Shown: positions 1,617-31,817, counted from the stretch's first letter. The stretch: 43,789 nt of DNA from a virus (IMGVR_UViG_3300028920_000126:1-43789); one strand, 5' to 3'. Notes: generated from the letters alone by a model not told the origin. Program-made: numbers and translations.

Positions 1617-1897
1617 TCGGTGAGACGTAGTCGCCACTGGTCTCGATACCAGTGGCTGAACTGGGTACAGCTCATTTGCCGCATGTCGTAGTCGAGATGA
1701 TCGCAGGTGGCCTCGTTGGCCCCGGCGTACCCCTTGGTCAGGTCGACCGTGCATTCGTCGATGCACTCGGCGGGCGAGCCGGCGCCCTCAACCTGACACG
1801 ACACCAGCTTGTAGCAGATGGTCTCGCAGTGGTTCTCGCATGGAGTAGCGCCACACGACCAAAGGAGAACTACGGCAATCACTACTGTTGGCTTCAT
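1613..1897 (-). CDS. Cysteine-rich putative lipoprotein
   Basis: 94 residues. The ATG at 1897 overlaps the stop of the recombination gene (ATGA) and has GGAGGAG just upstream. Residues 1-14 form a short hydrophobic signal sequence (MKPTVVIAVVLLWS) followed by Cys15, consistent with a lipobox LWSC, so the mature protein would be lipid-anchored in the envelope. The remainder has eight further cysteines (C20, C24, C28, C34, C45, C49, C65, C77), suggesting disulfides in the periplasm or at the surface. It is expressed with the recombination gene, not the lysis genes, which suggests a superinfection-exclusion or lysogenic-conversion role by analogy with small phage lipoproteins. That role is inferred; it is not an o-spanin by position. 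Confidence 0.75.
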   Translation of the reverse strand: MKPTVVIAVVLLWSCGATPCENHCETICYKLVSCQVEGAGSPAECIDECTVDLTKGYAGANEATCDHLDYDMRQMSCTQFSHWYRDQWRLRLTD

Positions 1898-3609
1898 CGC
1901 TCCTCCAACTCGTCCGGGGTGTAGAGCCCCGAGGTAATGTCCGGGTAGACGACCCGAGCGAGCTGAGTCCCAGCTCGCCACAGGCACATCATCCCCGGTC
2001 GTTTCTTCCAGTTGTCGTTGCCGAGCAGGCCTGCCCGCTTGGCGTCCTCGAGCGTGAACGTCATGGTGACGGGCTCCGGCTCGTCGCGCCGCTTGGTCTC
2101 CCACGTCGCGCGGTCGTCCGCCTGCTCCTTGATTCGGAAGTACTCGCACGCTGGGTGGCGCTTCACCAGGCCGATGAGAAGCTGCGCACTCGGGCTGGCC
2201 TTCCCTTTCACGAAATGGAATCCGCGGAGAGATGACACTGCATCCATGCCGAAGGTGCGTCCGGTCATAACGATGGCGAGGATCGCCTCAGGGTTGGGGA
2301 AGTCACCAAACATCCTGGACCGGTGCATGCTCTTCGCCAGACCCCACGCCTGACCCATGTCGGCCGGCTCGAGGGCGCGGTCGTAGTCCGGGTTGCGCTT
2401 GACCATGGCGGTTTGTGCTGGGGGAATGACGACGTCGGGCTCGACCACCTCGGGCGCCGTCGGTGGCTCGGGGTCTGGCCCCTGTACCCCCGGAGTCGCA
2501 CCGGATTCAGGACCATCCACACTCACTGCAGGTTGTGCGGACTGAGTGGTCTCACCACCATTCGGGCCAGGGTCATCCGCCTGTGCTGACTCCTCCGCCG
2601 GGTGCGGCGGCTCCTCTTCCTCCCCGGGCATGCTGTCGAGGTCGAGCTCGGGCTGGCCCTCTTTGTGCTGCGGGTTCATCGGGGCGAAGAGCTGCTTCGC
2701 GTCGATGGGCGCATCGATCATCAGCTTGGTGAGACCGTGCCACTTGTTCAATTCGTCCCGGTTTTCGAGGATGGCCTCGCCGAGCGTCTTGCCGTCGCCG
2801 CCTGGCTGCTTGCGGGAGATGCGGTGAGCGTTGGCGATCACGCCGTCGAGGTCGCCGTACTCGTTCAGCCAGCCCGCCGCAATCTTGGTGCCCGCACCCT
2901 TGATGCCGGGGATGTTGTCCGACTTGTCTCCGATGATGGCGAGCAGATCTGCGACCAGCTCTGGATGAACTCCAAACTTCTCGAGGACCTCGTCCTGCCC
3001 GTACTTCTGCTGCGTCATCGGCGAGAAGATTTTTGTGTTGGGAGACACGAGCTGCATCAGGTCCTTGTCTCCGCTGAAGACGATCACCTCGATGCCCTGG
3101 TTTTCGGTGTGCTCGACCAGCGTGGCAATGATGTCGTCCGCCTCGTACCCTTCCGCCCGAAAGATGTGGTAGCCCAGCTCGCGGATCCGGTCGATGGTCT
3201 GGCGCATCTGCTCCTTCATCACCGTCGATGCCTTCTCCCGGTTCGCCTTGTACTCCTTCATGATGGATTGACGCTGGTACGGTGGCCAATCGAGGCACAC
3301 CCCGACGTGGTCGAAGTTGGAGGCGTGGTTCTCGATGAACCGCACAGTCTTGCGGTACGCCGAGCCGACCTCGTCCTGTTCGCTCGCGTGCCAGTGGATG
3401 CGGAAGATGTTGGAGAGGTCCACCAGGCAGGTGTGCTTCTCCTCTGCGGGTTTGTGCTCGGACACGGAGACTACCTCCTCGACGGTACCGAATTCGATCG
3501 CCGCCTGAACGCTGGCGAGGTGACCTGCTTTCTTGAAGCCGTCGGCCTCGACCTTGTGAATGGTAACTTGCCCGCCGTCGGCGAGCTCGACTGTGACATC
3601 CCAAAGCAT
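1894..3609 (-). CDS. Fused 5'-3' exonuclease / RecT-like annealing protein
   Basis: 571 residues in one uninterrupted frame, starting at the ATG at 3609 with GAGGAG 6 nt upstream (an in-frame extension to 3729 lacks a comparable site). Residues about 58-310 are a FEN/PolI-type 5'-3' exonuclease: metal-ligand motifs VDLSN (D64), EADD (E156, D158, D159), SGDKD (D181, D183) and GDKSDNIPG (D228, D231), followed by the GAGTK helix-hairpin-helix loop. Residues 311-404 are a Pro/Glu-rich linker. Residues 405-571 match the RecT-like single-strand annealing proteins of actinophages: AILAIVMTGRTFGMD, FVKGKASPSAQLLIGLV, TLEDAKRAGLLG, NWKKRPGMMCLWRA and the ending GLYTPDELEE. The first 57 residues are unassigned. 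The fusion would put both steps of phage recombination on one chain. Part assignments are firm; the combined activity is inferred. Confidence 0.88.
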   Translation of the reverse strand: MLWDVTVELADGGQVTIHKVEADGFKKAGHLASVQAAIEFGTVEEVVSVSEHKPAEEKHTCLVDLSNIFRIHWHASEQDEVGSAYRKTVRFIENHASNFDHVGVCLDWPPYQRQSIMKEYKANREKASTVMKEQMRQTIDRIRELGYHIFRAEGYEADDIIATLVEHTENQGIEVIVFSGDKDLMQLVSPNTKIFSPMTQQKYGQDEVLEKFGVHPELVADLLAIIGDKSDNIPGIKGAGTKIAAGWLNEYGDLDGVIANAHRISRKQPGGDGKTLGEAILENRDELNKWHGLTKLMIDAPIDAKQLFAPMNPQHKEGQPELDLDSMPGEEEEPPHPAEESAQADDPGPNGGETTQSAQPAVSVDGPESGATPGVQGPDPEPPTAPEVVEPDVVIPPAQTAMVKRNPDYDRALEPADMGQAWGLAKSMHRSRMFGDFPNPEAILAIVMTGRTFGMDAVSSLRGFHFVKGKASPSAQLLIGLVKRHPACEYFRIKEQADDRATWETKRRDEPEPVTMTFTLEDAKRAGLLGNDNWKKRPGMMCLWRAGTQLARVVYPDITSGLYTPDELEER

Positions 3610-3652
3610 CGTCGCTCCTCTCTGGGTTGTATCATGCGGGGCTGACTCCACC

Positions 3653-3667
3653 GCCACACTATGTGGC
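3653..3667. promoter_or_regulatory. Perfect inverted repeat, candidate operator
   Basis: GCCACA-CTA-TGTGGC, six-base arms around a three-base centre, about 45 bp upstream of the recombination gene start. Size and position suit a dimeric HTH repressor. Confidence 0.5.
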
Positions 3668-3705
3668 ACTGCCAGCAGCTCTCGACCCACCCCGGGGGGA
3701 TAACA

Positions 3706-3717
3706 GTCAAAGTTGAC
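3706..3717. promoter_or_regulatory. Inverted repeat over the -35 box, candidate operator
   Basis: GTCAA-AG-TTGAC, five-base arms; the right arm is most of the -35 box of the rightward promoter. Binding here would block polymerase, a standard repressor layout. Confidence 0.5.
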
Positions 3718-3742
3718 CCCGGCCCGCACCTCATGTTATACA
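3713..3742 (+). promoter_or_regulatory. Sigma70-type promoter for the HTH gene, near-leaderless transcript
   Basis: TTGACC (3713-3718), an 18-base spacer and TATACA (3737-3742). Transcription should begin near 3748-3750, only a few bases before the ATG at 3753, and no Shine-Dalgarno site fits between. This resembles lambda cI transcribed from PRM, which is leaderless. Confidence 0.7.
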
Positions 3743-5035: not shown

Positions 5036-5272
5036 ATGCAGCTCGAGCTTGGCAAGGTCAGATGGGTGGTCTATGAACCCGTGAAAGCGGCGACTGGTCA
5101 CATTTCTCCGCCGCGCAACCACGTTGCTGACGTCATCGACGGCAGCGTCATCACCCGGTGCGGTCAGGTTTTTGAGGAGGGGCGAGCTCGCCTCGGGCGC
5201 CGGTCGGGGTACGACTGCAAGCACTGCCTGCAGCTGCTTCGCCGCGACCTCGAGGAACAGCTCGATGGGTAA
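5036..5272 (+). CDS. Small hypothetical protein with CxxC motif
   Basis: 78 residues, with GGAGGGG 4 nt before the ATG; the longer in-frame reading from 5000 lacks a site. Residues near the end carry DCKHC (CxxC) and an upstream 'TRCGQVF', which together could bind one zinc ion. The stop lies inside the start region of the nuclease gene (8-base overlap). No family recognised. Confidence 0.65.
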   Translation: MQLELGKVRWVVYEPVKAATGHISPPRNHVADVIDGSVITRCGQVFEEGRARLGRRSGYDCKHCLQLLRRDLEEQLDG

Positions 5273-5696
5273 GCTGAGTCGCGAGAAGGGGAAGCGTTTC
5301 GAGCGGTGGGTGGCCAACGAGTTTCGCGACATCATGCCTGGCGTTGAGGTGCGGCGCGGCCTGCAGTCGCGTAACGGTGGAGAGGTCCCCGACGTCGAGG
5401 TCCCGTGCTTCTGGGTCGAGTGTAAGCACGGGAAGAAGCCCAACATCAGGGCCGCCCTCGAGCAGGCACAGCGCGACTCCGAGGGCACGTCAAAGTTCCC
5501 CACGGCGATCATCAAAGACCATGGCCAGCGCATGCCTCCGATGGTGGTGATGCGGATGGACGACTGGCTGGCAATCATCGAGGAGTGGTACCAATGGCGA
5601 GGCGAGAAGTCGGGAAGCACAGCATCTTCACCTCTTGGTTTCATCCAAGGACCAACCCAGCCCACAGCGAAGGATACGACCGGGTCTACGGAGTAA
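5265..5696 (+). CDS. Hjc-like Holliday-junction resolvase / PD-(D/E)xK nuclease
   Basis: 143 residues, starting at the ATG at 5265 with GAGGA upstream. The N-terminal 'SREKGKRFERWVANEF' gives the family's first acidic ligand; a 'RRGLQSRNGGEVPDVEVP' segment contains the D of the PD motif and 'FWVECKHGK' the ExK. The following 'NIRAALEQAQRDS' is also typical. Such enzymes cleave branched DNA before packaging. The last about 34 residues, beyond the nuclease domain, overlap the next gene out of frame for 103 bases. Confidence 0.8.
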   Translation: MGKLSREKGKRFERWVANEFRDIMPGVEVRRGLQSRNGGEVPDVEVPCFWVECKHGKKPNIRAALEQAQRDSEGTSKFPTAIIKDHGQRMPPMVVMRMDDWLAIIEEWYQWRGEKSGSTASSPLGFIQGPTQPTAKDTTGSTE

Positions 5697-5923
5697 AAGA
5701 AGAGATCTGCTGTCAGGGGAAAAACCTTTTTCTAACACCCGATGGCGAGCAGTACCGCTGCAACGAGTGCGACCAGCTCTGGCCGCTCGACTGCGACCAG
5801 GCTCAGGAGTACGACGCGGAGCACACGGTGCCGACGCGCAACCTGATCGGCGGCACGCCATTCAAAGACCAAGAACGCCGGAAGCGAGAGGGCCATGACC
5901 GAACCTTCAAAAAACGAACCTGA
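5594..5923 (+). CDS. Small zinc-binding hypothetical protein
   Basis: 109 residues; GAGGAG lies 8 nt before the ATG at 5594. Cys pairs (ICCQGKN and YRCNECDQLW, residues about 44-65) suggest a zinc ribbon, and the C-terminus is strongly basic (RRKREGHDRTFKKR). It overlaps the nuclease gene by 103 bases in another frame and there is no later ATG that would avoid this. No family recognised. Confidence 0.65.
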   Translation: MARREVGKHSIFTSWFHPRTNPAHSEGYDRVYGVKEEICCQGKNLFLTPDGEQYRCNECDQLWPLDCDQAQEYDAEHTVPTRNLIGGTPFKDQERRKREGHDRTFKKRT

Positions 5924-6173
5924 GGTTTCCTACTGCGAACTCGGCGCTGTGCCGAAGATGATGTGGCAGTGCCCGACGTGCCTCAAGGTCAAAGAGACGT
6001 TCAGCATGGATCTGATCAACCCCATCGGGCAGGGCGGCGAACTGGAGTGGAAGTGCGAGTGTGGTCACGAGGGAGTGCTTGCCCGTCGTCGCATGGCTAC
6101 CAACACACAGAGCCGAGCCGAACGCCGGCGGTTGTCACGTCTGGCGTTGAAGCAGAAGAAGGTGAAGAGGTAG
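5895..6173 (+). CDS. Zinc-ribbon protein with basic tail
   Basis: 92 residues. Two CxxC/CxC knuckles, MWQCPTC and WKCECGHEG (residues about 24-62), form a probable zinc ribbon. The last 25 residues are rich in Arg and Lys (SRAERRRLSRLALKQKK) and probably bind nucleic acid. It overlaps the previous gene by 29 bases and precedes the terminase small subunit. Function unknown. Confidence 0.7.
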   Translation: MTEPSKNEPEVSYCELGAVPKMMWQCPTCLKVKETFSMDLINPIGQGGELEWKCECGHEGVLARRRMATNTQSRAERRRLSRLALKQKKVKR

Positions 6174-6182
6174 AATGCTTCC

Positions 6183-6863
6183 ATGAAAGAGAAGGACCAG
6201 CGAGCTCCGCGGAAGTGTCGGTACTGCGGCGAGGTGGGTCACTACATCCAGACGTGCCCGAAACGGAAGGCCGACATTGAGGCCGAGCCGCCGCCGATGT
6301 CTCTGGAGCAGCACGGGATGGAGTTCCAGCAGAAGAACCCGCGCAAGCCGAAGCACACCCCCATGGAACTGCAGCGCGAGGTGATGACGCCTGACCTGCC
6401 GAAGCTGTCGAACCGCTACTTCCTCTTCTGCGAGAACCTGCTCAGGGGCATGAAGCAGGGCGAGGCGTACCTGGCGGCGGGGTTTGACTGCAAGGATACC
6501 TCGGCGCCGACCAACGCGTCGAAGGCCTTGAAGCGGGAGGACGTCCGCGTCTACCTTTCGCTGCGCCGGAAGCAGATCATGGAGGAGTGCGAGTGCACCC
6601 TCGAGTGGTGGGTGAAGCGCAACATGGCTATCATCCAGGAGGCCCACGACCTGAAGGAGACCCCGGCCTCGCGGTCGGCGGCCATGGAACGCATCGGTCG
6701 GTACCTCGGCGCCTACCAGAAGGACCGGACCAACGAGGCCGACAAGCGGTCGACGGACGAGCTACTCGCCGACCTGCCGGGGGCCCTGAGGGTTCTGAAT
6801 GGCGGGAGGCTGACCGAGAAGGACCGGGAGCTGATCAGCGACGTGAAGAAGAAGCTGGGATAG
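6183..6863 (+). CDS. terS: Terminase small subunit with N-terminal zinc knuckle
   Basis: 226 residues. Residues about 74-130 match the Terminase_2 type DNA-recognition domain: KLSNRYFLFCENLLRG, GEAYLAAGF and NASKALKREDVRVYLSLRR. Uniquely for this family, as far as I know, residues 12-25 form a retroviral-type CCHC zinc knuckle (C12-x2-C15-x4-H20-x4-C25, followed by P). The protein should recognise the packaging site and load the large subunit onto DNA. It sits more than 11 kb from the large subunit, at the end of the early rightward set. A weak AGAGG site lies about 14 nt upstream of the start. Confidence 0.8.
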   Translation: MKEKDQRAPRKCRYCGEVGHYIQTCPKRKADIEAEPPPMSLEQHGMEFQQKNPRKPKHTPMELQREVMTPDLPKLSNRYFLFCENLLRGMKQGEAYLAAGFDCKDTSAPTNASKALKREDVRVYLSLRRKQIMEECECTLEWWVKRNMAIIQEAHDLKETPASRSAAMERIGRYLGAYQKDRTNEADKRSTDELLADLPGALRVLNGGRLTEKDRELISDVKKKLG

Positions 6864-6871
6864 GCTACAAG

Positions 6872-7450
6872 CTACCCATCGTAGGTGCCGTTCAGGGCTG
6901 CGACCTTCTCGTCCCATTCGATGTGGTCGTAGAACTTCGCCGTGGTGTGGATCGAGCTGTGGCCGAGCACCTCCTGCACCATGTGGAGGTCCCCGGTGGC
7001 CCGTCGCAGGTTGGTCCCCAGGGTGTGCCTGGCTCCGTGGATCGACAGGTGGGGGAGGCCGGAGGCGGCGACCATGCGGTTCCACGCCTTCTGGAGCCCC
7101 TTCCTGGTCATCGGCCCGCGCTGCCCCTCGAAAAGAGCCTCCTCTGGGGCAATGGAGCTCCTCTGCGCCATGTGCTGTAGGACGACCGTGGAGAGGTGGT
7201 TTGACATGGGGAGGATATCCCACGAGGGCTTGCCCCGTTTGGAGCGGTAGACGCGGACTGAGCCCCTGGAGAAGTCGAAATCTCCGAGGCGGAGCCTACC
7301 CAGCTCGTTGACCCGGAGCCCCAGCTCCAGGGCTACCTCGACCAGGAGACAGGCTACGACGTCCGCCTTGCGCCCCTGGGCCGCTCGAGCCCGTGCCGCC
7401 TTCCGGAGCGTGGCTACCTCGTCGGGGTTGTAGTACTGGCTACGCTGCAT
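6872..7450 (-). CDS. int: Compact tyrosine recombinase (integrase)
   Basis: 192 residues, starting at 7450 with GAGG 5 nt upstream. All catalytic positions are visible: R46 in LGLRVNEL, a lysine in the beta-hairpin (K71 or K74, SKRGKP), H138 and R141 in HGARHT, H164 in LGHSS and the nucleophile Y174 in AKFYDH. The usual N-terminal arm-binding and SAM-like core-binding domains are absent or tiny (phage integrases are generally over 300 residues). Such short enzymes can act as integrases, resolvases of genome dimers or inversion enzymes. No attP-like site can be pointed to next to it; only 8 bases separate it from the terminase small subunit. Confidence 0.85.
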   Translation of the reverse strand: MQRSQYYNPDEVATLRKAARARAAQGRKADVVACLLVEVALELGLRVNELGRLRLGDFDFSRGSVRVYRSKRGKPSWDILPMSNHLSTVVLQHMAQRSSIAPEEALFEGQRGPMTRKGLQKAWNRMVAASGLPHLSIHGARHTLGTNLRRATGDLHMVQEVLGHSSIHTTAKFYDHIEWDEKVAALNGTYDG

Positions 7451-7457
7451 GGCTACC

Positions 7458-8147
7458 TCACAGGTTGCAGACCCGGCAGCTGACCTTCCGCTGCCGAGCC
7501 TTGGGGGTGTATCCGGCCTCGAATTTGGCCCGCAGGTCGCGGAGGGCGGCCGGCTGGGTGTCTCGGGACGGGCTACGGAACGTGTGGCCGATCTGCTCCT
7601 CCCAGGCTTCTCCCTGGGCGTAGGCTTCCGGGTGGTGCTTCCAGAGGAGCCACCACTCGTGTAGGGTCTGGAAGAAGCACACGGCGCAGTCAGTGCGGGT
7701 GGGAATGGCTACTCCGGCCTGCTCGCAGCACCGGAGCACCTCGGCCAGACCCCAGCCCCACTCACGCAGGGGGTACTGGATCTCCTTGGCGCCCTCGTAG
7801 GTGCCGCCGACCCGGCCGGGCTCGTCGGCGCGGAGCCCCACACACAGAGTCTCGTCGGGGTGCTGCCGGAGGTACTCGGCGCAGGGCTCGACCTTGATCA
7901 TGCGGGTGCACCACCGCATGCGCCACGAGGGCAGGCACTGCTGCTCGTCGATCAGCTCGGCGAGGGTCGGCGCGGGGACTGCCTCGACCTGGCGACCGAC
8001 GATCTGCTCGACGTGGCGGATGTGGCGCATGAGGTCGGGTAACTCGTTGCCGGTGGGGGTCCAGATCATGCGGAAGTCCTCGCCGAGCTTGGCGAGCTGC
8101 AGCACCATGGCGGTCGAGTCCTTGCCGCCGGAGAAGGCTACGAGCAT
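7458..8147 (-). CDS. PAPS-reductase-like / N-type ATP pyrophosphatase protein
   Basis: 229 residues from the ATG at 8147 (AGAGGTGA upstream). Residues 1-14, MLVAFSGGKDSTAM, carry the SGGKDS loop of adenine-nucleotide alpha hydrolases, as in PAPS reductase, tRNA thiolases and the phosphorothioation protein DndC. Cysteine pairs (TDCAVCFFQ and the final CRVCNL) could hold an Fe-S cluster or zinc. Homologues are common in phages but their substrate is unknown; nucleotide or DNA sulfur chemistry is possible. The start overlaps the end of the cytosine methylase by 10 bases, which suggests a linked function, possibly DNA modification. That link is inference. Confidence 0.8.
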   Translation of the reverse strand: MLVAFSGGKDSTAMVLQLAKLGEDFRMIWTPTGNELPDLMRHIRHVEQIVGRQVEAVPAPTLAELIDEQQCLPSWRMRWCTRMIKVEPCAEYLRQHPDETLCVGLRADEPGRVGGTYEGAKEIQYPLREWGWGLAEVLRCCEQAGVAIPTRTDCAVCFFQTLHEWWLLWKHHPEAYAQGEAWEEQIGHTFRSPSRDTQPAALRDLRAKFEAGYTPKARQRKVSCRVCNL

Positions 8148-9112
8148 GCCATCACCTCTGCGATGAGCCAGCCGACTACTTCCGCTTGCTGCGGACAAAC
8201 CGCGTTCCCGAGCGCCATGAGGACTTGCTTTCGGTCGAGATTGCACTGTCGAACCACGGCAGGGGGAACCCCATCATCCACGTCACGAAGCGTGGGTTGA
8301 GGGACCGTGTCGTCTGCCCAAGCGACCTCGGCAGGGATCGACCACCCTTTGTGCCCTTCCCCGGACTGCCCTTGTAGTCCCTGGTCGACGGCGTCGGCAG
8401 GCGGTCGCCGTGCTTCTCGTTGATCGTCCTGCGGTGCACCACCACGTCGGTCAGGCTCACGCCCGGCTTTGCCTTGGAGCCCTTTTTCTGTCTCGACCCG
8501 CTCGACTTGGCGTCGCCGACCGTCGGCGTCGGCAGGAGCCCCTGCTTCGCCATCGACTCCAGAGACGGGCGCACCGGGCCGACCCGACCCGCGCCGCCGC
8601 CCTGATTGTTTCCGTAGCTGCTCGCCGCGGGCGTGGGCAACAATGAAAATTCGCCGTCGGAGGTGAGGAGCGCCGACATCCGCTGCTGACAGCGGAACCG
8701 GTAGCGTCTCATAGCCGAGCTGTTCCAGTGCGGCCGAGACAGCGTCGACCCACCGGCGGGCTCCGCTGGCGACGTTTTCGACGACGACCCACTCGGGGCG
8801 GAGCGCGGCAACGATCCGTTCAAACTCATACCAAAGCCCCGAGCGACTGCCAGCAAGGCCTGCGCCGCTGCCTGCGCCGGAGATGTCCTGGCAGGGGAAT
8901 CCGCCGCAGATGAGGTCGACGGGGGAGAGGCTACAGGATCGGACGTCTTCATGTTGCACTGCCTCCGGCCAATGCTGCTTCAGCACCGACCTGCAGAATG
9001 GGTTGATTTCGACCTGCCACACTACCTCCGGGTCGTGGCCGGCGTCTCGGAGGGCTGTCTCCAGGCCAAGCTCGATCCCCCCGATGCCACTGAACAGGCT
9101 ACCGATCCGCAT
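8138..9112 (-). CDS. dcm: DNA cytosine-C5 methyltransferase
   Basis: 324 residues from the ATG at 9112. Motif I (FSGIGG, residues 8-13), the catalytic motif IV PCQ (C74), motif VI ENV (112-114), motif VIII-like RRR (152-154) and the ending ALGNAV (about 300-305) are all present in order. The region between about 160 and 275 is rich in Gly, Arg, Asp and Gln and lacks a normal folded target domain; this is where a second reading frame is also open. It methylates cytosine in DNA with S-adenosylmethionine, probably against host restriction. Overlaps both neighbours by 10-14 bases in the leftward operon. Confidence 0.9.
   Translation of the reverse strand: MRIGSLFSGIGGIELGLETALRDAGHDPEVVWQVEINPFCRSVLKQHWPEAVQHEDVRSCSLSPVDLICGGFPCQDISGAGSGAGLAGSRSGLWYEFERIVAALRPEWVVVENVASGARRWVDAVSAALEQLGYETLPVPLSAADVGAPHLRRRIFIVAHARGEQLRKQSGRRRGSGRPGAPVSGVDGEAGAPADADGRRRQVERVETEKGLQGKAGREPDRRGGAPQDDQREARRPPADAVDQGLQGQSGEGHKGWSIPAEVAWADDTVPQPTLRDVDDGVPPAVVRQCNLDRKQVLMALGNAVCPQQAEVVGWLIAEVMACS
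8176..8952 (-). CDS. Overlapping ORF inside the cytosine methylase gene
   Basis: 258 codons on the same strand, shifted +1 relative to the methylase. Its C-terminal 150 residues contain a pattern I recall from many phage and prophage proteins found with cytosine methylases: LLPTPAASSYGNN, LLPTPTVGDAKSSGSRQKKG, RLPTPSTRDYKG and LNPRFVTWMMGFPLPWF. In those proteins the usual ending is LNPxxVEWLMGFPxGW. The presence of this pattern next to an intact methylase frame suggests both frames are real. The N-terminal part (residues 1-90) is low complexity and may not be translated. How it would be started is unclear: ATG at 8952 or a frameshift from the methylase frame. Confidence 0.5.
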   Translation of the reverse strand: MKTSDPVASPPSTSSAADSPARTSPAQAAAQALLAVARGFGMSLNGSLPRSAPSGSSSKTSPAEPAGGSTLSRPHWNSSAMRRYRFRCQQRMSALLTSDGEFSLLPTPAASSYGNNQGGGAGRVGPVRPSLESMAKQGLLPTPTVGDAKSSGSRQKKGSKAKPGVSLTDVVVHRRTINEKHGDRLPTPSTRDYKGSPGKGTKGGRSLPRSLGQTTRSLNPRFVTWMMGFPLPWFDSAISTESKSSWRSGTRFVRSKRK

Positions 9113-9332
9113 TGCACACCTCTCGGAGGGAGCGGACGATGTCGGGCACGTCCTCGTCAGCGCCGACGTTCTCCTCCCAGAGGACCAGCGACTCACGACA
9201 GATGGCGAGCAGGCGGTCACGGTCTGCGGTCACGTTCTCCAGCTCCTGCTGCTGGGCGTCGATGATGCCCGCCTGCTCTCCAAGCTCTCGGTCGAGTTTC
9301 AGGATCGCTTCCTTCATCGCTGCGAATGACAT
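9099..9332 (-). CDS. Small coiled-coil hypothetical protein
   Basis: 77 residues. I chose the ATG at 9332, which follows the upstream stop in the junction TAGCCATG with GGAAGG 10 nt away; a GTG at 9341 is too close to the site. Sequence is helical with heptad-like spacing (AAMKEAILKLDRELGEQAG, then DAQQQELENVTADRDRLLA), probably a coiled coil. It overlaps the methylase start by 14 bases. No family recognised. Confidence 0.7.
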   Translation of the reverse strand: MSFAAMKEAILKLDRELGEQAGIIDAQQQELENVTADRDRLLAICRESLVLWEENVGADEDVPDIVRSLREVCNADR

Positions 9333-9334
9333 GG

Positions 9335-9562
9335 CTACCACGCCTTCCCGGTCACCTGGTGGTGACCACCGGGGTTCAGGTACCCGCGCTGACCGTCGTC
9401 GTCGCGGGACCAGTGAATGAACACCTGCGACCGGTCGCGACCATTGGCTCCACGGCTGGCCAGCTGCGCCTCGACCATGGCCACCGACGCCTCGTCGCCG
9501 GTCCAGATGATGTCCCGACCGCCGTCCCAGTACTCCTCGGTCACGGTGTAGGTCATCGCCAT
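9335..9562 (-). CDS. Small hypothetical protein
   Basis: 75 residues, starting at an ATGA overlap with the upstream gene. The sequence begins MAMTYTVTEEYWDGGRDIIW and is mixed alpha/beta, with an acidic N-terminal half and a 'QVFIHWSRDDDGQRGYLNPGG' turn near the end. No family recognised. Its operon position and tidy junctions support it. Confidence 0.65.
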   Translation of the reverse strand: MAMTYTVTEEYWDGGRDIIWTGDEASVAMVEAQLASRGANGRDRSQVFIHWSRDDDGQRGYLNPGGHHQVTGKAW

Positions 9563-9762
9563 CACCACACCTCCGGCAGTTCGCCGCACTCGACGTACGG
9601 TTTGCGCTTCAGGACGTTGCGACCCGTGAAGGCGTCGCGGAAGAGCTGCCCACAGTCGGGGCATCGGGTGCGCTTGCTTCGCCGGATCCCGCAACGGCAC
9701 CGGACTCGGGGTCCGTGGCGCCACGTCCGCCACGCTCGCTTCAGGCGGTTCCACATGGTCAC
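9562..9762 (-). CDS. Small basic zinc-ribbon protein
   Basis: 66 residues. A GTG start at 9762 is preferred: it overlaps the upstream stop (GTGA) and GAGGAGG lies 4-5 nt upstream; an ATG two codons later is possible. CRCG and CPDCG (residues about 22-38) make a four-cysteine knuckle in an Arg-rich context (KRAWRTWRHGPRVR). Likely nucleic-acid binding; family unknown. Confidence 0.65.
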   Translation of the reverse strand: MTMWNRLKRAWRTWRHGPRVRCRCGIRRSKRTRCPDCGQLFRDAFTGRNVLKRKPYVECGELPEVW

Positions 9763-9950
9763 TCAACCTCCTCAAGTGCCTTCTCCTGCACTCGTTTGTA
9801 CTCGTCGGCGATCCACGGCAGGCAGTACAGATCGTTGCGGTCCACGCCTTTGTCAGCAAACCACTGCTGCACCTTGTCGTTGGCGCGTTTGAGCTGCTCC
9901 TCCGTGTACCCGTCGGTGTTGTCGTCGCTGAATGGTCTCATGAGTGACAT
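9759..9950 (-). CDS. Small hypothetical protein
   Basis: 63 residues with AGGAG upstream in the junction AGGAGTAGCCAATG. Helical, acidic, with 'QQWFADKGVDRNDLYCLPWI' in the middle. No family recognised. It sits in the leftward operon between an HTH protein and a zinc-ribbon protein. Confidence 0.65.
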   Translation of the reverse strand: MSLMRPFSDDNTDGYTEEQLKRANDKVQQWFADKGVDRNDLYCLPWIADEYKRVQEKALEEVE

Positions 9951-9953
9951 TGG

Positions 9954-10226
9954 CTACTCCTGTACGATGATCGGTGGATTGGCCAGCTCTTCGACCCACT
10001 GGCGAACCGGAATGTTGAGCATCTCCTCGACGGCGACCGCCACCTCCAGGGACGGACGGCGCTCACCGCAGAGCACCTTGCGAAAGTTGCCGACATCGAC
10101 GCCGAGGGCACGAGCGACGTCGCTGTGGTACAGGCTGTTGTCGTTGCAGTACTCCAGCACCCGCGCAGCGGCGAGCGTGGTCGGTTGAATTGGGGACGGC
10201 TTGCGTCCGCTTCCTCTGGCTCCCAT
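9954..10226 (-). CDS. HTH protein (XRE-like)
   Basis: 90 residues from the ATG at 10226; AGGAGG lies in the end of the upstream gene. Residues about 20-70 form a helix-turn-helix: ARVLEYCNDNSLYHSDVARALGV is the first part (helices 1-2), then DVGNFRKVLCGERRPSLEVA with the recognition helix. A basic N-terminal tail (GARGSGRKPSP) may contact the DNA groove. It is probably the second regulator of the phage, acting on the early operons; targets are unknown. Confidence 0.75.
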   Translation of the reverse strand: MGARGSGRKPSPIQPTTLAAARVLEYCNDNSLYHSDVARALGVDVGNFRKVLCGERRPSLEVAVAVEEMLNIPVRQWVEELANPPIIVQE

Positions 10227-10228
10227 GG

Positions 10229-11221
10229 CTACTTGTCCTCCTTGTTGATGTCGATCCACTTGCCGACGGTGTGCCAGCAGGCGGAGTCAAATTCGTTGCT
10301 CACGTCGAACGGCAGATCTCCGGACGGCACGTCGAAGTAGCGGTCGCTGATGACGTGCCAGAAAGCCTCCATGGCGGCGTCGACCGCCTCGCGGCGGCGC
10401 AGCGTTTCCGCCTCGTCCTTCGCCATGCTGTAGCACTGCCGACAGTAAGACGCGCCGGCATCCTCGACGTAGCGCAGCCCCTTGAGGTGGCCGCACCCGC
10501 TGCACTCACCGACGTCGGTGGCGCAGCCCCACTCGCAGACGTTGCCGGTGGTGATCTCGCCGTCGCACATGCTGCAGGTGTTGCGGTCGGTGACGGAGAG
10601 GCGGGCGCCGCAGCTACAGTGGAGCGGCTCCTTGCCGGTGACGCAGTTGCAGTCGGCGTCGTGGCCCGGCCACTCCGGGTCGTGGACCTTGTCGACGTGC
10701 ACGGCGTAGCCGAGCATCTCGTCGTAGTCGTCGTAGTCAATGAGGCCGCAGTTGCAGTCGGCGCACGAGTGGCCGGAGCAGTTCTCGTGGTGCAGCGGCA
10801 GCAGCTGGCCTGGGGTGAACTCGTCGGTGCGGGACTGCGTTGCGAAACCGTTGGGCTCCACCACGGTGTCGTCGGGTACGACATGCGTCACGGTCTCGGC
10901 CTCAGGGAACACGAGGTCGCCGTCGTCGTAGTGCGGGTCGACCATGGGGGAGAGGTGGTCCATCACCTTCTCGATGATGTGGTCAGCGTGCTCCTGTGAG
11001 AGGTTACCCTCGTGGCGGGCACAGGCTACATCGACAGCGTGGTCGATGATGTCGGTCAGCTGGTTGGCGGTGCGAGTGCGCAGGTCCTCCCACTTGAGAA
11101 TCTGGCGACAAATCTTCTCGCACATGGCGCGGTCGGAGATCTCGTATTGGTCCTGGAGATCGCTGCGCAGGTTCTTGAGGAGTAGCTCGGCGGAAGTGAT
11201 TGACGCGGAATTGATCGACAT
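10229..11221 (-). CDS. Large Cys-rich metal-binding protein, first gene of the leftward operon
   Basis: 330 residues from the ATG at 11221 with AGGAG 6 nt upstream. Residues 1-90 are helical without metal motifs. Residues about 145-275 hold over 20 Cys/His in clusters: CSGHSCADCNCG, CNCVTG, LHCSCGARLS, TCSMCDG, CEWGCATDVGECSGCG and SYCRQC, consistent with several zinc-ribbon units. I do not recognise the family. As promoter-proximal gene after the repeat-rich hub it is likely to be made first and in quantity, so a regulatory or host-takeover role is plausible but unproven. Confidence 0.7.
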   Translation of the reverse strand: MSINSASITSAELLLKNLRSDLQDQYEISDRAMCEKICRQILKWEDLRTRTANQLTDIIDHAVDVACARHEGNLSQEHADHIIEKVMDHLSPMVDPHYDDGDLVFPEAETVTHVVPDDTVVEPNGFATQSRTDEFTPGQLLPLHHENCSGHSCADCNCGLIDYDDYDEMLGYAVHVDKVHDPEWPGHDADCNCVTGKEPLHCSCGARLSVTDRNTCSMCDGEITTGNVCEWGCATDVGECSGCGHLKGLRYVEDAGASYCRQCYSMAKDEAETLRRREAVDAAMEAFWHVISDRYFDVPSGDLPFDVSNEFDSACWHTVGKWIDINKEDK

Positions 11222-11252
11222 GTTTGCTCCTGTCGAAAGGGTGATTGCTTCG

Positions 11253-11264
11253 TGTACTAGTACA
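11253..11264. promoter_or_regulatory. 12-bp perfect palindrome, candidate operator
   Basis: TGTACTAGTACA, 32 bp upstream of the first gene of the leftward operon. Position suits control of that operon by one of the two HTH proteins. Confidence 0.5.
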
Positions 11265-11284
11265 TACACTACTTGACGTCCGAT

Positions 11285-11402
11285 TGGCTACAAAAAACGA
11301 CCAGTGGCTACCAGCTACTGGCTACCAGCTACTCCACCAGCTACCAGCTACGGGGTACCAGCTACCAGCTACCACCAGCTACTGCCATAGGCTACCAGCT
11401 AC
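11285..11402. repeat. CAGCTAC heptamer (iteron-like) array
   Basis: Eight copies of CAGCTAC start at 11312, 11326, 11338, 11345, 11359, 11366, 11376 and 11396; three spacings are 7 or 14 bases. TGGCTAC variants lie at 11285, 11305, 11319 and near 11389. The strand sense matches the GGCTAC hexamers found throughout the leftward operon, so the two motifs may share a ligand. Confidence 0.85.
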
Positions 11403-11437
11403 TCGAGGCAGTGTAGTGCTCGAGGCCTACATCGCAT

Positions 11438-11478
11438 TGCACTACATGAGCTCGCACTGCACTGCACTGCACTACATG
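11438..11478. repeat. GCACT tandem repeat and TGCACTACATG direct repeat
   Basis: TGCACTACATG occurs at 11438-11448 and 11468-11478 (30 bases apart). Between them GCACT is repeated four times without gaps (11454-11473). An inverted partner TGTAGTGC lies at 11412-11419. Confidence 0.85.
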
Positions 11479-11514
11479 TATGGCAACATATGGCGAGCTC
11501 GCCGCCATACATGT
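11474..11514. repeat. Nested palindromes
   Basis: Eleven-base arms ACATGTATGGC (11474-11484) and GCCATACATGT (11504-11514) form a perfect inverted repeat. The space between includes the 12-bp palindrome GGCGAGCTCGCC (11492-11503), directly touching the right arm. A cruciform or a protein-binding site could form here. Confidence 0.85.
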
Positions 11515-11614
11515 AACCCCTCGAGAAGACTGGCGAAAACCAGGCGCCGGCGGAGCTCGGCGTTATTGTTGGTCTTTTCGGGCACAACGACATCAAAAGC
11601 AGACATCGGCCCTA

Positions 11615-11620
11615 TATAAT
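11615..11620 (+). promoter_or_regulatory. Consensus -10 box for the second rightward operon
   Basis: TATAAT in the context CTATATAATGG, about 100 bases before the first gene. No good -35 box is found 16-18 bases upstream, so the promoter would need an activator or an extended contact. Confidence 0.45.
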
Positions 11621-11716
11621 GGAGGGCTCTTTTTTCTGTCAAACGCGCAACAAAAAGTAACCAGGACCGGTGCTATGTGATAAGGTCAAACAGACATCAA
11701 AACCCTAGGAGCAATC

Positions 11717-11872
11717 ATGACCATCCGTTGCCTTTTCATTGAATCGACTGAGACCGACAAGCTGTATGAGGTGACCCGCCCCGATGGAACCTACATCGGT
11801 GTTTTCACCTCGACCGAAATCCGCGAACGACTCACCTCCCGAGACCCCGACAGTGACCCGGAGTCGTTCTGA
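11717..11872 (+). CDS. Small hypothetical protein
   Basis: 51 residues, with TAGGAG 6 nt before the ATG. Begins MTIRCLFIESTETDKLYEV and continues RPDGTYIGVFTSTEIRERL, a compact beta-alpha pattern; the tail is acidic. Its stop overlaps the next ATG (TGATG). First gene of the second rightward operon. No family recognised. Confidence 0.65.
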   Translation: MTIRCLFIESTETDKLYEVTRPDGTYIGVFTSTEIRERLTSRDPDSDPESF

Positions 11873-12330
11873 TGCGGCGCCCTGACTGCAGCACCAAAGC
11901 ACGACCCTTGGTGTGGATTTACGCACCTAGGTGTCGCGGTATTTTTGACGGCGACAACCGAGCGGAGGGGTTTGAGGAGTATGCGCTAATCAATTGCCCC
12001 GATGGTAGTTCCGAGACCGGATCTACTCGCGTTGGTGTCATTGATTGGCTGTGCTCTCGTTTCGAGAAATGCGTCTCGGGCCATTGGATGCAGTGCTACG
12101 CCGAGCAAGGCAAGGCAGACGCAATGCAGCGTTGGCCAGGCAATTGGAGCGCGTGGGGTGAGGTGAGACCGCGACGCGGCACCACCTATGACGCATGGAA
12201 TCGCCCCGCCGATGGTCGGTTCTCGCTCTCCCTGTGGTCGTCTCACCTCTACTGCGGTGACGTCGACTCTTTTCAAACCAACAAACGACGCAAGGGGCAT
12301 AGCCCCTTGGAGGTGAGTTACAATGGGTAG
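11872..12330 (+). CDS. Hypothetical protein
   Basis: 152 residues, coupled to both neighbours (TGATG before, 8-base overlap after). Rich in Trp, Cys and Arg (VGVIDWLCSRFEKCVSGHWM, WPGNWSAWGEV). No family recognised. Codon choices look somewhat different from the late operon (more CGT and ACC/ATT mixtures), but I could not measure this. Confidence 0.65.
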   Translation: MRRPDCSTKARPLVWIYAPRCRGIFDGDNRAEGFEEYALINCPDGSSETGSTRVGVIDWLCSRFEKCVSGHWMQCYAEQGKADAMQRWPGNWSAWGEVRPRRGTTYDAWNRPADGRFSLSLWSSHLYCGDVDSFQTNKRRKGHSPLEVSYNG

Positions 12331-13159
12331 CTGTCCCCTGAGACCCGAACCCCCGAAGCTTGCATGCTACGCAACCGGCCCGGCTTTCGAGGTGAAGCCC
12401 GGCAAGGTGCAACCGATCCCCTTGCCACCTCGGAAGGAATCCAAGGCTGCTATCCTTTACAAGGTAGGCGGTCTTTCCGCTCCGAGTAAGATGCCCGGTT
12501 ATGGTTACTCGTTGCCGTGCGACGCATGCGTCATTGGTAGCTTGCTCGCCAAGAAGCCCGGCAGTGTGTGCGAAGGGTGCTATGCCAATCGCGGCAACTA
12601 CCGTTTCCCCAATGTGCAAGCGTGCTTGTTTGACCGCCTCGCATGCGTCGCACAACCGGAATGGGCGAGCAACATGGTCGCAGCGATCAATGCGGTCTAT
12701 CCCGATGACAGTGAGTCGCACTACTTCCGTTGGCACGACTCTGGAGACTTGCAATCGGCGCAACACCTCGCGTCGATTGTCGAGGTGTGCAAGCGTACGC
12801 CGCACGTCAAGCATTGGCTGCCGACGAAAGAGCGGGGATTCCTTGCGCGCTACTTGCGCGAGTCTCGCGAGTCGTTCCCGAGTAACTTGTGTGTCCGTTA
12901 CTCGTCTCACTACATCAATCAATCGGCGCCGGGTTGGCTTACTGTCGACAAGCGGACTCGTTGGGATGGTCATTACTCGTGGGTTTACGATCCCACAACC
13001 ATCAATCCGCTCTGTCTCGAAGATGTAGAGTCAGGAGCATGGGGACACCTCTGTCAGCCCACGTTTGACGGGAAGCATGGAACGGGATGCGACACGTACG
13101 GGTGCCGCGAATGCTGGAACAAGGAAACCCGCGTGGTCGTCTACAAGCGCCACGCCTAG
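12323..13159 (+). CDS. Gp88-family protein
   Basis: 278 residues. Matches the phage Gp88 family known from mycobacteriophages (PF17338, by recall): LPCDACVIGSLLAKKPGSVC and then EGCYANRGNY give a Cys cluster (C-x2-C...C-x2-C-Y-A), followed by FRWHDSGDLQSAQHL, TPHVKHWLPTKERGF and a C-terminal GCDTYGCREC cluster. The Cys clusters suggest a metal or Fe-S site. The biochemical function of the family is unknown. Centre of the second rightward operon, among small zinc-ribbon proteins. Confidence 0.8.
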   Translation: MGSCPLRPEPPKLACYATGPAFEVKPGKVQPIPLPPRKESKAAILYKVGGLSAPSKMPGYGYSLPCDACVIGSLLAKKPGSVCEGCYANRGNYRFPNVQACLFDRLACVAQPEWASNMVAAINAVYPDDSESHYFRWHDSGDLQSAQHLASIVEVCKRTPHVKHWLPTKERGFLARYLRESRESFPSNLCVRYSSHYINQSAPGWLTVDKRTRWDGHYSWVYDPTTINPLCLEDVESGAWGHLCQPTFDGKHGTGCDTYGCRECWNKETRVVVYKRHA

Positions 13160-13173
13160 CAAAGGAAACCATC

Positions 13174-13440
13174 ATGGCAAGCATGCAAACCACCATTCTC
13201 CGAAACATTCTCAAGCATGCCGTCGGGCGTGCAATGTTCTGTCCGTTCTGTGAGGTGTGCCTTGACTGTCGCAAGGCTGTCCTTTGCGATTTGCCGGGCA
13301 AGAGTCTCATCATGTGCGCCAAGTGTTGGGACCGGGACGGTCAACCGGCAGTCGACGCACTGCCCGCCGAGTCTCGCGACAAAGTCGAGGTGACCGACGG
13401 CCGCGTGCTCTGGAGTCGCAAGCGGAAGGTAGGTGCGTGA
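13174..13440 (+). CDS. Small zinc-ribbon protein
   Basis: 88 residues from the ATG at 13174 (AAGGAA upstream). Six cysteines: CPFCEVCLDCRKAVLC (residues about 26-41) and MCAKCW (about 49-54), enough for one or two zinc sites. The C-terminus is mixed charged and ends basic. Its stop overlaps the next start. No family recognised. Confidence 0.7.
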   Translation: MASMQTTILRNILKHAVGRAMFCPFCEVCLDCRKAVLCDLPGKSLIMCAKCWDRDGQPAVDALPAESRDKVEVTDGRVLWSRKRKVGA

Positions 13441-13847
13441 TGAGAACCGACAACCGTTTCCGCTCTGTCATGTTTCACGTTGGCCACGTAGGCGACTTGG
13501 CCTACTTCGATTCCTTCCATGGACTCATTCCATGCAAGGTGATCGAGGTAGACACACCTCCGAGTCTCACGCATGACCTAGGGACTCGCGTCACTGTCAA
13601 GGTGACTGCCGACCGTTCCCCGGTCTACAAACGTGGCGAGACCATCATCACCGATTGCGCGACGCGTGTCGTTCCCCGTTGCCGCATCTACACTCGTGGC
13701 GGCGTCAAGCGTATCTCGGGAGGGTATGGTTGGAGCATTTATCCGGAGTCGACTCCGGCTGCACCGCGACCATGCCCACGATGTGGCGAGACTCGGTTGC
13801 TTCTCGTGTCTGACCTTTGTCACGATTGCTCGGAGGTGACGCTATGA
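13440..13847 (+). CDS. Hypothetical protein with C-terminal zinc knuckle
   Basis: 135 residues. The first 100 are beta-rich (FHVGHVGDLAYFDSFHGL, RVTVKVTADRSPVYKRGETI), the last 35 carry CPRCGETRLLLVSDLCHDC, a four-cysteine zinc knuckle. Both ends overlap neighbouring genes by 1-4 bases. No family recognised. Confidence 0.7.
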   Translation: MRTDNRFRSVMFHVGHVGDLAYFDSFHGLIPCKVIEVDTPPSLTHDLGTRVTVKVTADRSPVYKRGETIITDCATRVVPRCRIYTRGGVKRISGGYGWSIYPESTPAAPRPCPRCGETRLLLVSDLCHDCSEVTL

Positions 13848-14014
13848 CACCGAAGCAAGTCAAGGCGACGATTGAGGTGAGTGAAGCTGCGGCCGCTTTC
13901 CGTTTCTGGGCTTCACAGCCCGGGCGCTTGACCCGAGATGAGCGCGAGCAAAAACGCGAAGCTGAGAGACGATTGGAGCGCGCATACAGGGCCCTTTGCC
14001 GCGCGTGCCCGTAG
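13844..14014 (+). CDS. Small basic helical protein
   Basis: 56 residues with GGAGG before the ATG at 13844, which overlaps the previous stop. Highly charged helix (RDEREQKREAERRLERAYRA). Last gene before the strong terminator. No family recognised. Confidence 0.65.
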   Translation: MTPKQVKATIEVSEAAAAFRFWASQPGRLTRDEREQKREAERRLERAYRALCRACP

Positions 14015-14039
14015 CATCACCTCGACAACGAGAGAACAG

Positions 14040-14069
14040 GAGCCCCGGTAACCCCGGGGCTCTTTTTTT
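14040..14069 (+). terminator. Strong intrinsic terminator
   Basis: A perfect nine-base stem (GAGCCCCGG / CCGGGGCTC) with loop TAACC, followed by seven T. It ends the second rightward operon. Confidence 0.92.
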
Positions 14070-14855
14070 GGCACGGGGCTCCCCTGGCGACAGCGCCTGG
14101 TGCTCCATTTTGGTGCACGACACGACGCGTCGAGACTGCACCATTTTGGGGCGAGCTTTCCAGGGTGCACCACCTCGAGGCACCCACCACGAGCTCTGCA
14201 CCATAATTGCGCAGCACACAGGCATCGCCAGGGCTTGGTACTGCCGTTCTATGGCACCCTGCTGTGCTTACTTCTCATGTAGGCGCGTGCTTACCTACCA
14301 TCCTAAGACGAGAGAATCCAACGAAGTCCACAGGGTGGGTGATATGACCCATTATTCTGTCAAGCATTTTCTTTCGCTCTCATTCCGAGGGGTTGGAGGT
14401 GGTTTCGGGGGCTCGAAACTGAGACTTGTGGCATTAATCAGACGTCGGAGGTGTCAGGTTCCAGAGGCTTTGGGGTGCCTGTGATAAGGGAACGCGCGGG
14501 CCCCAATCGGGGCTCCCGTGGCCCTTGGGGGGTGAATCTGGGGACACTTCCGATGTTCTGCCCCCAGTCTAGCCCCTGAGGTGTCTCATGGGCCCCTGTC
14601 GGGGCTCTGCGGAGACCACCGGCGAGCAAAAAACCCCCCTGGCCGCTCTGGTCCCGGCTTATCTCCCCTCGGCGCATTCTGAGGGCTCTAGACACCCGGG
14701 AGACTGGTACCGCTGGTCGCAGCTGTCCGGGCTCGAGGAGGTGCTCCAGAGGGGGCGCGAGAGTTTCACGTGAAGCATTAGACGGGGCGGGCAGTTGGTG
14801 GTATGGCACCGACCTGGGCTCAGAAGTACCGGTCTCAGACGCGATGGAGGAGACG
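14070..14855. other. Non-coding region before the late operon
   Basis: About 790 bases without a gene I can support. It contains TGCACCA-type repeats (14099-14204, listed separately), the palindrome CGACGCGTCG (14123-14132), and two GGGCCCC-xxTC-GGGGCTC hairpins near 14497 and 14590. GGGGCTC recurs five times between 14056 and 14606. A 46-codon reading at 14344 and a 61-codon one at 14588 lack ribosome sites. No consensus promoter is visible, although the late operon must be transcribed from about here; the phage may use an activator. Confidence 0.6.
14101..14204. repeat. TGCACCA operator-like repeats
   Basis: TGCTCCATTTTGG (14101-14113) and TGCACCATTTTGG (14137-14149) are near-identical 13-mers. 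The core TGCACCA recurs at 14166 and 14197, and its inverse TGGTGCA at 14111. Copies are 29-36 bases apart, about three helix turns, as expected for cooperative regulator binding. Confidence 0.6.
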
Positions 14856-29201: not shown

Positions 29202-29761
29202 TGGGCTTCTGGTCTTCGCAACGCAAGGGATACGGAGCTCGCAAGGCGGGCGCTCGGTCAGCTCGTGATTACGCACAGCGCGGAGTTCAGGACACCACTG
29301 CGGGAGCTCTGGCTGGCGGCGCAGGCATGGACATGCTCGCGCAGCAGTACGCCGGCATCATCTCCGGACAGCAGCCGTCTCTCGCAGAGATGCAAATGCG
29401 CGAGGCCTACGGTCAAGCAATGGGTGGGACTCAGGCCATGGTTGCCGGGGCGAGCGGTGCAAACCGGGCCTTGACTCAACGTGCGGCGATGCAGGAGCGC
29501 GGGCGGCTTTCCGGCGAGCTCGCCCGCGGCGGCGCTCAGATGAGGATGCAAGAGCAGGAATTGGCGCGGCAGGGTTTGATGGGCGTTGCTGGCACGCAGC
29601 AACAGCACGCACTCAGCCTCGAGGATCTCATGATGCAGAAGTACGGCGTCGAGATGGGTATGCTCTCGCCGCAGCAGGAAGGCATGGGCGCCAAGCTCCT
29701 CGGGGCGACCATTGGAGCGGCTGGCTCGGTTGTTGGTGGTGCCTTGGCCGGCGGAGGTTGA
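29201..29761 (+). CDS. Small internal virion / ejection protein
   Basis: 186 residues with AGGAG 6 nt upstream; ATG preferred over a GTG one codon earlier. Ala/Gly/Met/Gln-rich helices (GGAGMDMLAQQYAGIISGQQ, REAYGQAMGGTQAMVAGAS), ending in a hydrophobic Gly-rich helix (LGATIGAAGSVVGGALAGGG) that could insert in a membrane. Position before two larger proteins of the same style fits the three-protein ejection set of podoviruses. Confidence 0.7.
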   Translation: MGFWSSQRKGYGARKAGARSARDYAQRGVQDTTAGALAGGAGMDMLAQQYAGIISGQQPSLAEMQMREAYGQAMGGTQAMVAGASGANRALTQRAAMQERGRLSGELARGGAQMRMQEQELARQGLMGVAGTQQQHALSLEDLMMQKYGVEMGMLSPQQEGMGAKLLGATIGAAGSVVGGALAGGG

Positions 29762-29762
29762 T

Positions 29763-31814: not shown

Positions 31815-31817
31815 GCT

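Follow-up and report, generated by a model that had tools for sequence, protein, structure and literature searches.

The window analysed here, meaning the whole 43,789-base virus record, encodes phage packaging and head proteins together with a compact leftward transcription unit (6872–11221, minus strand; Table 1). In order of transcription this unit runs from a 330-aa Cys-rich protein through a 90-aa XRE-type helix-turn-helix (HTH) protein and four small genes to a C5 cytosine DNA methyltransferase (MTase), an SspD/PAPS-reductase-like protein and a tyrosine recombinase (integrase). The Cys-rich protein has neither a family match nor a homologue, and its structure model (pLDDT 38) is unusable. 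The top match of the PAPS-reductase-like protein is SspD (E = 1e-34), a protein of single-strand DNA phosphorothioation, and the integrase, which lacks an N-terminal domain, has the size of FimB/FimE-type DNA invertases. The hexamer CTCGAG, over-represented in the window at 64 copies, is found once in 6863–11280 where 7.1 copies are expected (P = 0.007), a scarcity that gives the operon the look of a separate module. The palindrome CCTCGAGG is present in 18 copies in the window (2.9 expected), none of them within the gap 5249–14172. Further left, a single ORF (1894–3729) combines an exonuclease-like region with a RecT-like annealing protein.

Table 1. Genes, GTAGCC copies and leader features of the leftward operon.
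Feature	Position	Strand	Remarks
Tyrosine recombinase (integrase), 192 aa	6872..7450	-	catalytic domain only; five GTAGCC from start into first 120 nt
SspD/PAPS-reductase-like protein	7458..8150	-	putative start
C5 cytosine DNA methyltransferase (MTase)	8138..9112	-	TAG stop inside GTAGCC 8136
77-aa gene	9099..9332	-	begins directly after GTAGCC 9333, stops in GTAGCC 9097
75-aa gene	9335..9562	-	TAG stop within GTAGCC 9333
64-aa CxC/CxxC zinc-ribbon-like protein	9562..9756	-	by sequence inspection
63-aa gene	9759..9950	-	begins after GTAGCC 9952
90-aa XRE-type HTH protein	9954..10226	-	begins after GTAGCC 10227
330-aa Cys-rich orphan protein	10229..11221	-	first gene of operon
GTAGCC	6863..6868	-	8-nt gap after integrase stop; overlaps last base of convergent TerS stop
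GTAGCC	7331..7336	-	integrase, Val-Ala
GTAGCC	7352..7357	-	integrase, Val-Ala
GTAGCC	7412..7417	-	integrase, Val-Ala
GTAGCC	7438..7443	-	7 nt into integrase start, Arg-Ser-Gln
GTAGCC	7451..7456	-	directly ahead of integrase ATG
GTAGCC	7571..7576	-	SspD-like gene, Arg-Ser-Pro
GTAGCC	7707..7712	-	SspD-like gene, Val-Ala
GTAGCC	8136..8141	-	MTase stop; adjoins putative SspD-like start
GTAGCC	8929..8934	-	MTase, Cys-Ser-Leu
GTAGCC	9097..9102	-	77-aa gene stop; 10 nt into MTase start
GTAGCC	9333..9338	-	75-aa gene stop, then 77-aa gene ATG
GTAGCC	9952..9957	-	HTH gene stop, then 63-aa gene ATG
GTAGCC	10227..10232	-	Cys-rich gene stop, then HTH gene ATG
GTAGCC	11024..11029	-	Cys-rich gene, Val-Ala
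Array of 12 GTAGCY (4 GTAGCC, 8 GTAGCTG)	11286..11402	-	mostly 7-bp steps, upstream of first gene
Inverted repeat	11473..11515	.	12-nt arms, 100% complementary, 19 nt apart, in predicted leader
Best predicted leftward promoter	11613..11642	-	TTGACA - 18 - TATATA (or 17 - TTATAT); consensus match only

On the sense strand of this block the hexamer GTAGCC (GGCTAC on the plus strand) occurs 19 times from 6863 to 11390–11395, as the first-pass annotation had counted, against 0.58 copies expected from the rest of the window. The lone opposite-strand copy that it had reported in the block is at 10706, and the approximately four same-strand copies it had placed elsewhere lie at 6095, 15236, 33966 and 43347, alongside five opposite-strand copies outside the block. 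The excess also withstands the background comparison that had been proposed as a check: an order-2 Markov model built from the region itself gives 2.65 copies against the 19 seen, and 1.47 against 15 without the array (P about 1e-10). Nor is codon use a sufficient cause, in agreement with the earlier claim, as 10 copies fall in coding sequence against 1.01 ± 0.96 under synonymous-codon shuffling, a number reached in none of 5000 shuffles; by the same shuffling GTAGCC ranks first of all 6-mers in the operon's coding sequence. Val-Ala is spelled GTA GCC in six of 16 cases in the operon compared with two of 45 in the other genes (Fisher P = 0.003). The word is sharp, with one-mismatch variants lacking comparable enrichment; 12 of 14 copies continue with A or T, and beyond this the aligned contexts share just the hexamer itself. 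A sequence-level signal that goes beyond codon use is thus supported.

As an empirical null we took 904 4.5-kb blocks of the remaining loci retrieved and counted dispersed copies alone. The operon block scored −8.5 (log10) and was outscored by just two blocks, both of locus L309, a ranking to be read as a guide and not as a P value since the loci were not a random draw. Words that might have passed for comparable cases were rejected: among those of L309 and L310 (GGGTTT), the L309 word lies inside a longer repeat, GGGTTTTAGC(C/G)GC, whose copies are often spaced by about 40 nt, and the L310 word likewise inside a longer repeat, while AGGAGA of L157 sits mostly at Shine-Dalgarno positions. Within the window, GTTTGA shows nine same-strand copies in a 4.5-kb block of structural genes (29574–33674) where 0.8 are expected.

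For seven of the 15 operon copies a start codon is no more than 15 nt away, which holds for 6% of positions (binomial P = 1.3e-5), and the remainder are within genes or at the operon end. Four (7451, 9333, 9952 and 10227) end at, or one base ahead of, an ATG, and the integrase start region, with five copies, is the densest spot. The three junctions at which a TAG stop plus CC had been described just before the next ATG were recovered at 9333, 9952 and 10227, and two further TAG stops, of the MTase (8136) and the 77-aa gene (9097), bring the copies containing one to five; elsewhere in the window TAG junctions mostly have no CC after the TAG. Because the junctions are only a few bases long, association with starts, with stops and with junctions are inseparable. 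Eight copies are purely codons, in two frames and with unrelated flanks. The run had been said to end exactly with the operon; its last copy (6863) does fall just past the integrase stop, but a further same-strand copy is found past the operon, at 6095. The accessibility predicted for the sites in the mRNA did not differ from that of control 6-mers, a result that does not favour an RNA-level reading.

Upstream of the first gene the word merges into a heptad array, in which the eight CAGCTAC heptamers (plus strand) of the earlier description are found at 11312–11396. Of the promoter-like matches in the intergenic region, the top one points leftward from a position upstream of the array (TTGACA at 11642–11637); from this predicted promoter, array and operon would be co-transcribed, with the array in a leader RNA of nearly 400 nt. 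Array and dispersed word lie within one transcription unit, and across a 200-nt stretch of the leader (sense strand, 11475 to 11272) there are 16 GTAG and one CTAC. Rfam and tRNA scans gave no matches. The arms of the inverted repeat, TACATGTATGGC and GCCATACATGTA, are located between the divergent units, and the E. coli Chi octamer GCTGGTGG has two copies inside the array (11334 and 11372), on the operon's strand.

No relative that shares these operon proteins was recovered. An exact-peptide scan of IMG/VR found none for the integrase or the Cys-rich protein, searches of INPHARED gave none for the Cys-rich and HTH proteins and only partial integrase matches, all under 60% identity, and a search of PLSDB gave none for the Cys-rich protein. 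The phage itself has two distant relatives (L298 and L303), recognized through TerL, a 655-aa protein and the capsid protein; both lack the operon and any GTAGCC excess, and one of these TerL relatives carries an array of another hexamer, with GTAGCC absent as a dispersed word. A distant relative has a 270-bp intergenic array of CCCGNN hexamers with a fixed core and variable bases (L378:19616-19892). Heptad arrays as such are common: GTAGCYN arrays were found in 93 viral stretches on unrelated contigs, and a GTDB scan found GTAGCYR arrays in many bacterial phyla, which makes them uninformative on the host. Since such arrays are common in unrelated genomes, what is unusual here is the word dispersed along one strand, the array alone being no distinguishing feature.

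Among known systems, start-associated sequences (SAS) are nearest in placement and stoperators in orientation logic. The SAS of cluster K mycobacteriophages are a 13-mer, GGGATAGGAGCCC, dispersed through the genome and sited at gene starts (PMC3203893). Like SAS, the mechanism of which is unknown (PMC3203893), GTAGCC is a short asymmetric repeat in a single orientation, some copies of which lie directly upstream of gene starts; unlike that genome-wide 13-mer, it is a 6–7-mer of one operon that also falls within codons and is accompanied by a heptad array, and in the aligned contexts of its copies there was no match to SAS with up to two changes. The L5-type stoperators of cluster A mycobacteriophages are asymmetric, orientation-dependent sites of ~13 bp, reversal of which abolishes repression; they occupy intergenic gaps at >20 places genome-wide and serve a monomeric two-domain repressor of ~183 aa (PMC9283540). 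Here too, asymmetric sites mark a control region and gene junctions with their orientation tied to transcription, 19 of the 20 copies in the operon region following its direction, but GTAGCC is far shorter (6–7 bp), denser and intragenic, and in place of a genome-wide spread 19 of the 23 same-strand copies sit in one operon. The sole repressor-like fold recognized among the operon proteins is the single XRE domain of the 90-aa protein, and an L5-type two-domain repressor was not found among them. Membership in either class fails on consensus, length or distribution.

The array has a parallel of its own in the omega protein (ParB) of pSM19035, which binds consecutive non-palindromic 7-bp repeats (consensus WATCACW) overlapping promoters (PMC9499535). 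As in those omega/parS sites, a control region carries consecutive non-palindromic 7-bp repeats, at least four of them contiguous and unspaced (11306, 11313, 11320 and 11327, in 7-bp steps); unlike those sites, which are not known to have dispersed single copies, GTAGCC is dispersed as well. The scanned proteins of the operon and its neighbourhood included no recognizable ParA or ribbon-helix-helix ParB.

GTAGCC is probably a binding signal for a putative regulator of the operon. Our favoured reading, to which we give a probability of roughly 0.37, is that GTAGCC(W) is the exact cis-recognition word of this regulator, read on the sense strand and most likely at the RNA level. A sequence-specific regulator, encoded by phage or host, would recognize GTAGCC (often with the following A/T) on the sense strand and would act on the operon transcript or on the polymerase transcribing it; the leader array may be its cooperative loading site, and control over translation or elongation could be exerted through the intragenic copies and through those at translation starts, which stand between Shine-Dalgarno and ATG. 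Action on the transcript or its transcription is suggested because the word keeps to a single strand of a single transcription unit, and control at the RNA level is favoured because of the sites between Shine-Dalgarno and ATG, the dense integrase start and the probably transcribed array. T4 RegA, a translational repressor, is likewise a phage regulator that acts at many translation starts, as proposed here, although no RegA homologue was found among the proteins scanned. The intragenic codon copies are numerous, and there a translation-initiation model requires extra assumptions. It is rather doubtful that the operon has an RNA address of its own, an exact six-letter word on the sense strand that is placed at junctions and in synonymous codons, multiplied in the heptad leader array and used by one putative regulator to control the whole transcript at once. 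If true, an operon could be tagged along its length by way of synonymous positions and starts, with one regulator for all genes, and the system would be a compact relative of SAS and stoperators, whose mechanisms are unknown or partly understood.

Almost the same probability goes to a DNA roadblock of the stoperator type, itself a tentative proposal: an asymmetric repressor, for which the 90-aa XRE protein is the candidate, would sit on the array and on the oriented GTAGCC copies and block both initiation and elongation. An XRE-type DNA-binding protein encoded by the operon fits better with action on DNA, but XRE repressors usually bind palindromes, and the top promoter match lies ~210 bp upstream of the array's near edge. 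Site orientation that tracks transcription and tight junctions are shared with L5-type stoperators (PMC9283540), and the omega/ParB protein of pSM19035 binds unspaced 7-bp repeats over promoters (PMC9499535); known stoperators, however, are 13-mers spread genome-wide over short intergenic gaps, set against a 6–7-mer confined to one operon with more than half of its copies intragenic. That the word has no present function, the array being born by slippage and the isolated copies reflecting history or a context preference such as TAG-CC-ATG junctions, seems unlikely. The arrays in unrelated bacterial genomes and viral contigs are in keeping with such an origin, as are the five copies that coincide with TAG stops, but the eight codon copies in two frames with unrelated flanks, the coding excess unmatched in 5000 shuffles and the TAG junctions that mostly lack CC all argue otherwise, and the junction-context explanation is disfavoured.

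Two readings at the level of DNA metabolism carry still less weight. The first-pass annotation had offered antitermination or mRNA binding side by side with primase or replication-fork sites; the former are possible and form the class that we favour, whereas the latter are disfavoured because the word is confined to one strand of a single transcription unit. A role in replication or DNA processing, as primase, fork or Chi-like sites or as iterons with dispersed copies, is accordingly improbable: the array is iteron-like and holds two Chi octamers on the operon's strand, but a spread over the whole replicon would be expected of such sites, GTAGCC spans just 4.5 kb and ends where the operon does, and the octamer has another 10 copies beyond the array, distributed over both strands. 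Least probable is that GTAGCC is the target of DNA modification by the C5 methyltransferase or the SspD-like sulfur-transfer protein. C5 methyltransferases usually have palindromic targets, and CCA, the target of Ssp phosphorothioation, shows no strand bias here (96 versus 99), so that an explanation by phosphorothioation is disfavoured, even though the operon encodes both enzymes and Ssp systems mark one DNA strand (PMC8092258).

The survey of arrays in other genomes yielded observations of separate interest. An apparent link to GP88, present at 10 of the 93 array loci, was rejected as homology with the array of the window, as nine of these are low-GC CAAGCNN arrays in which GTAGC is spelled by accident. 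In low-GC viral contigs, CAAGCNN heptad arrays lie on the flanks of GP88 genes (L098–L175; 27 of 80 GP88 loci, e.g. L161:1893-1939 and L148:2560-2606). Their heptads have five fixed bases and two variable ones that take all 16 dinucleotides, they occur on the GP88 strand only, and 19 of 89 arrays end 0–7 nt ahead of TTGACA, a -35 hexamer. In high-GC viral contigs, inverted pairs of GTAGCCN heptad arrays lie near gene starts (L021:6387-6460, L035:8440-8530, L066:3173-3350 and others), and these pairs could form long hairpins.
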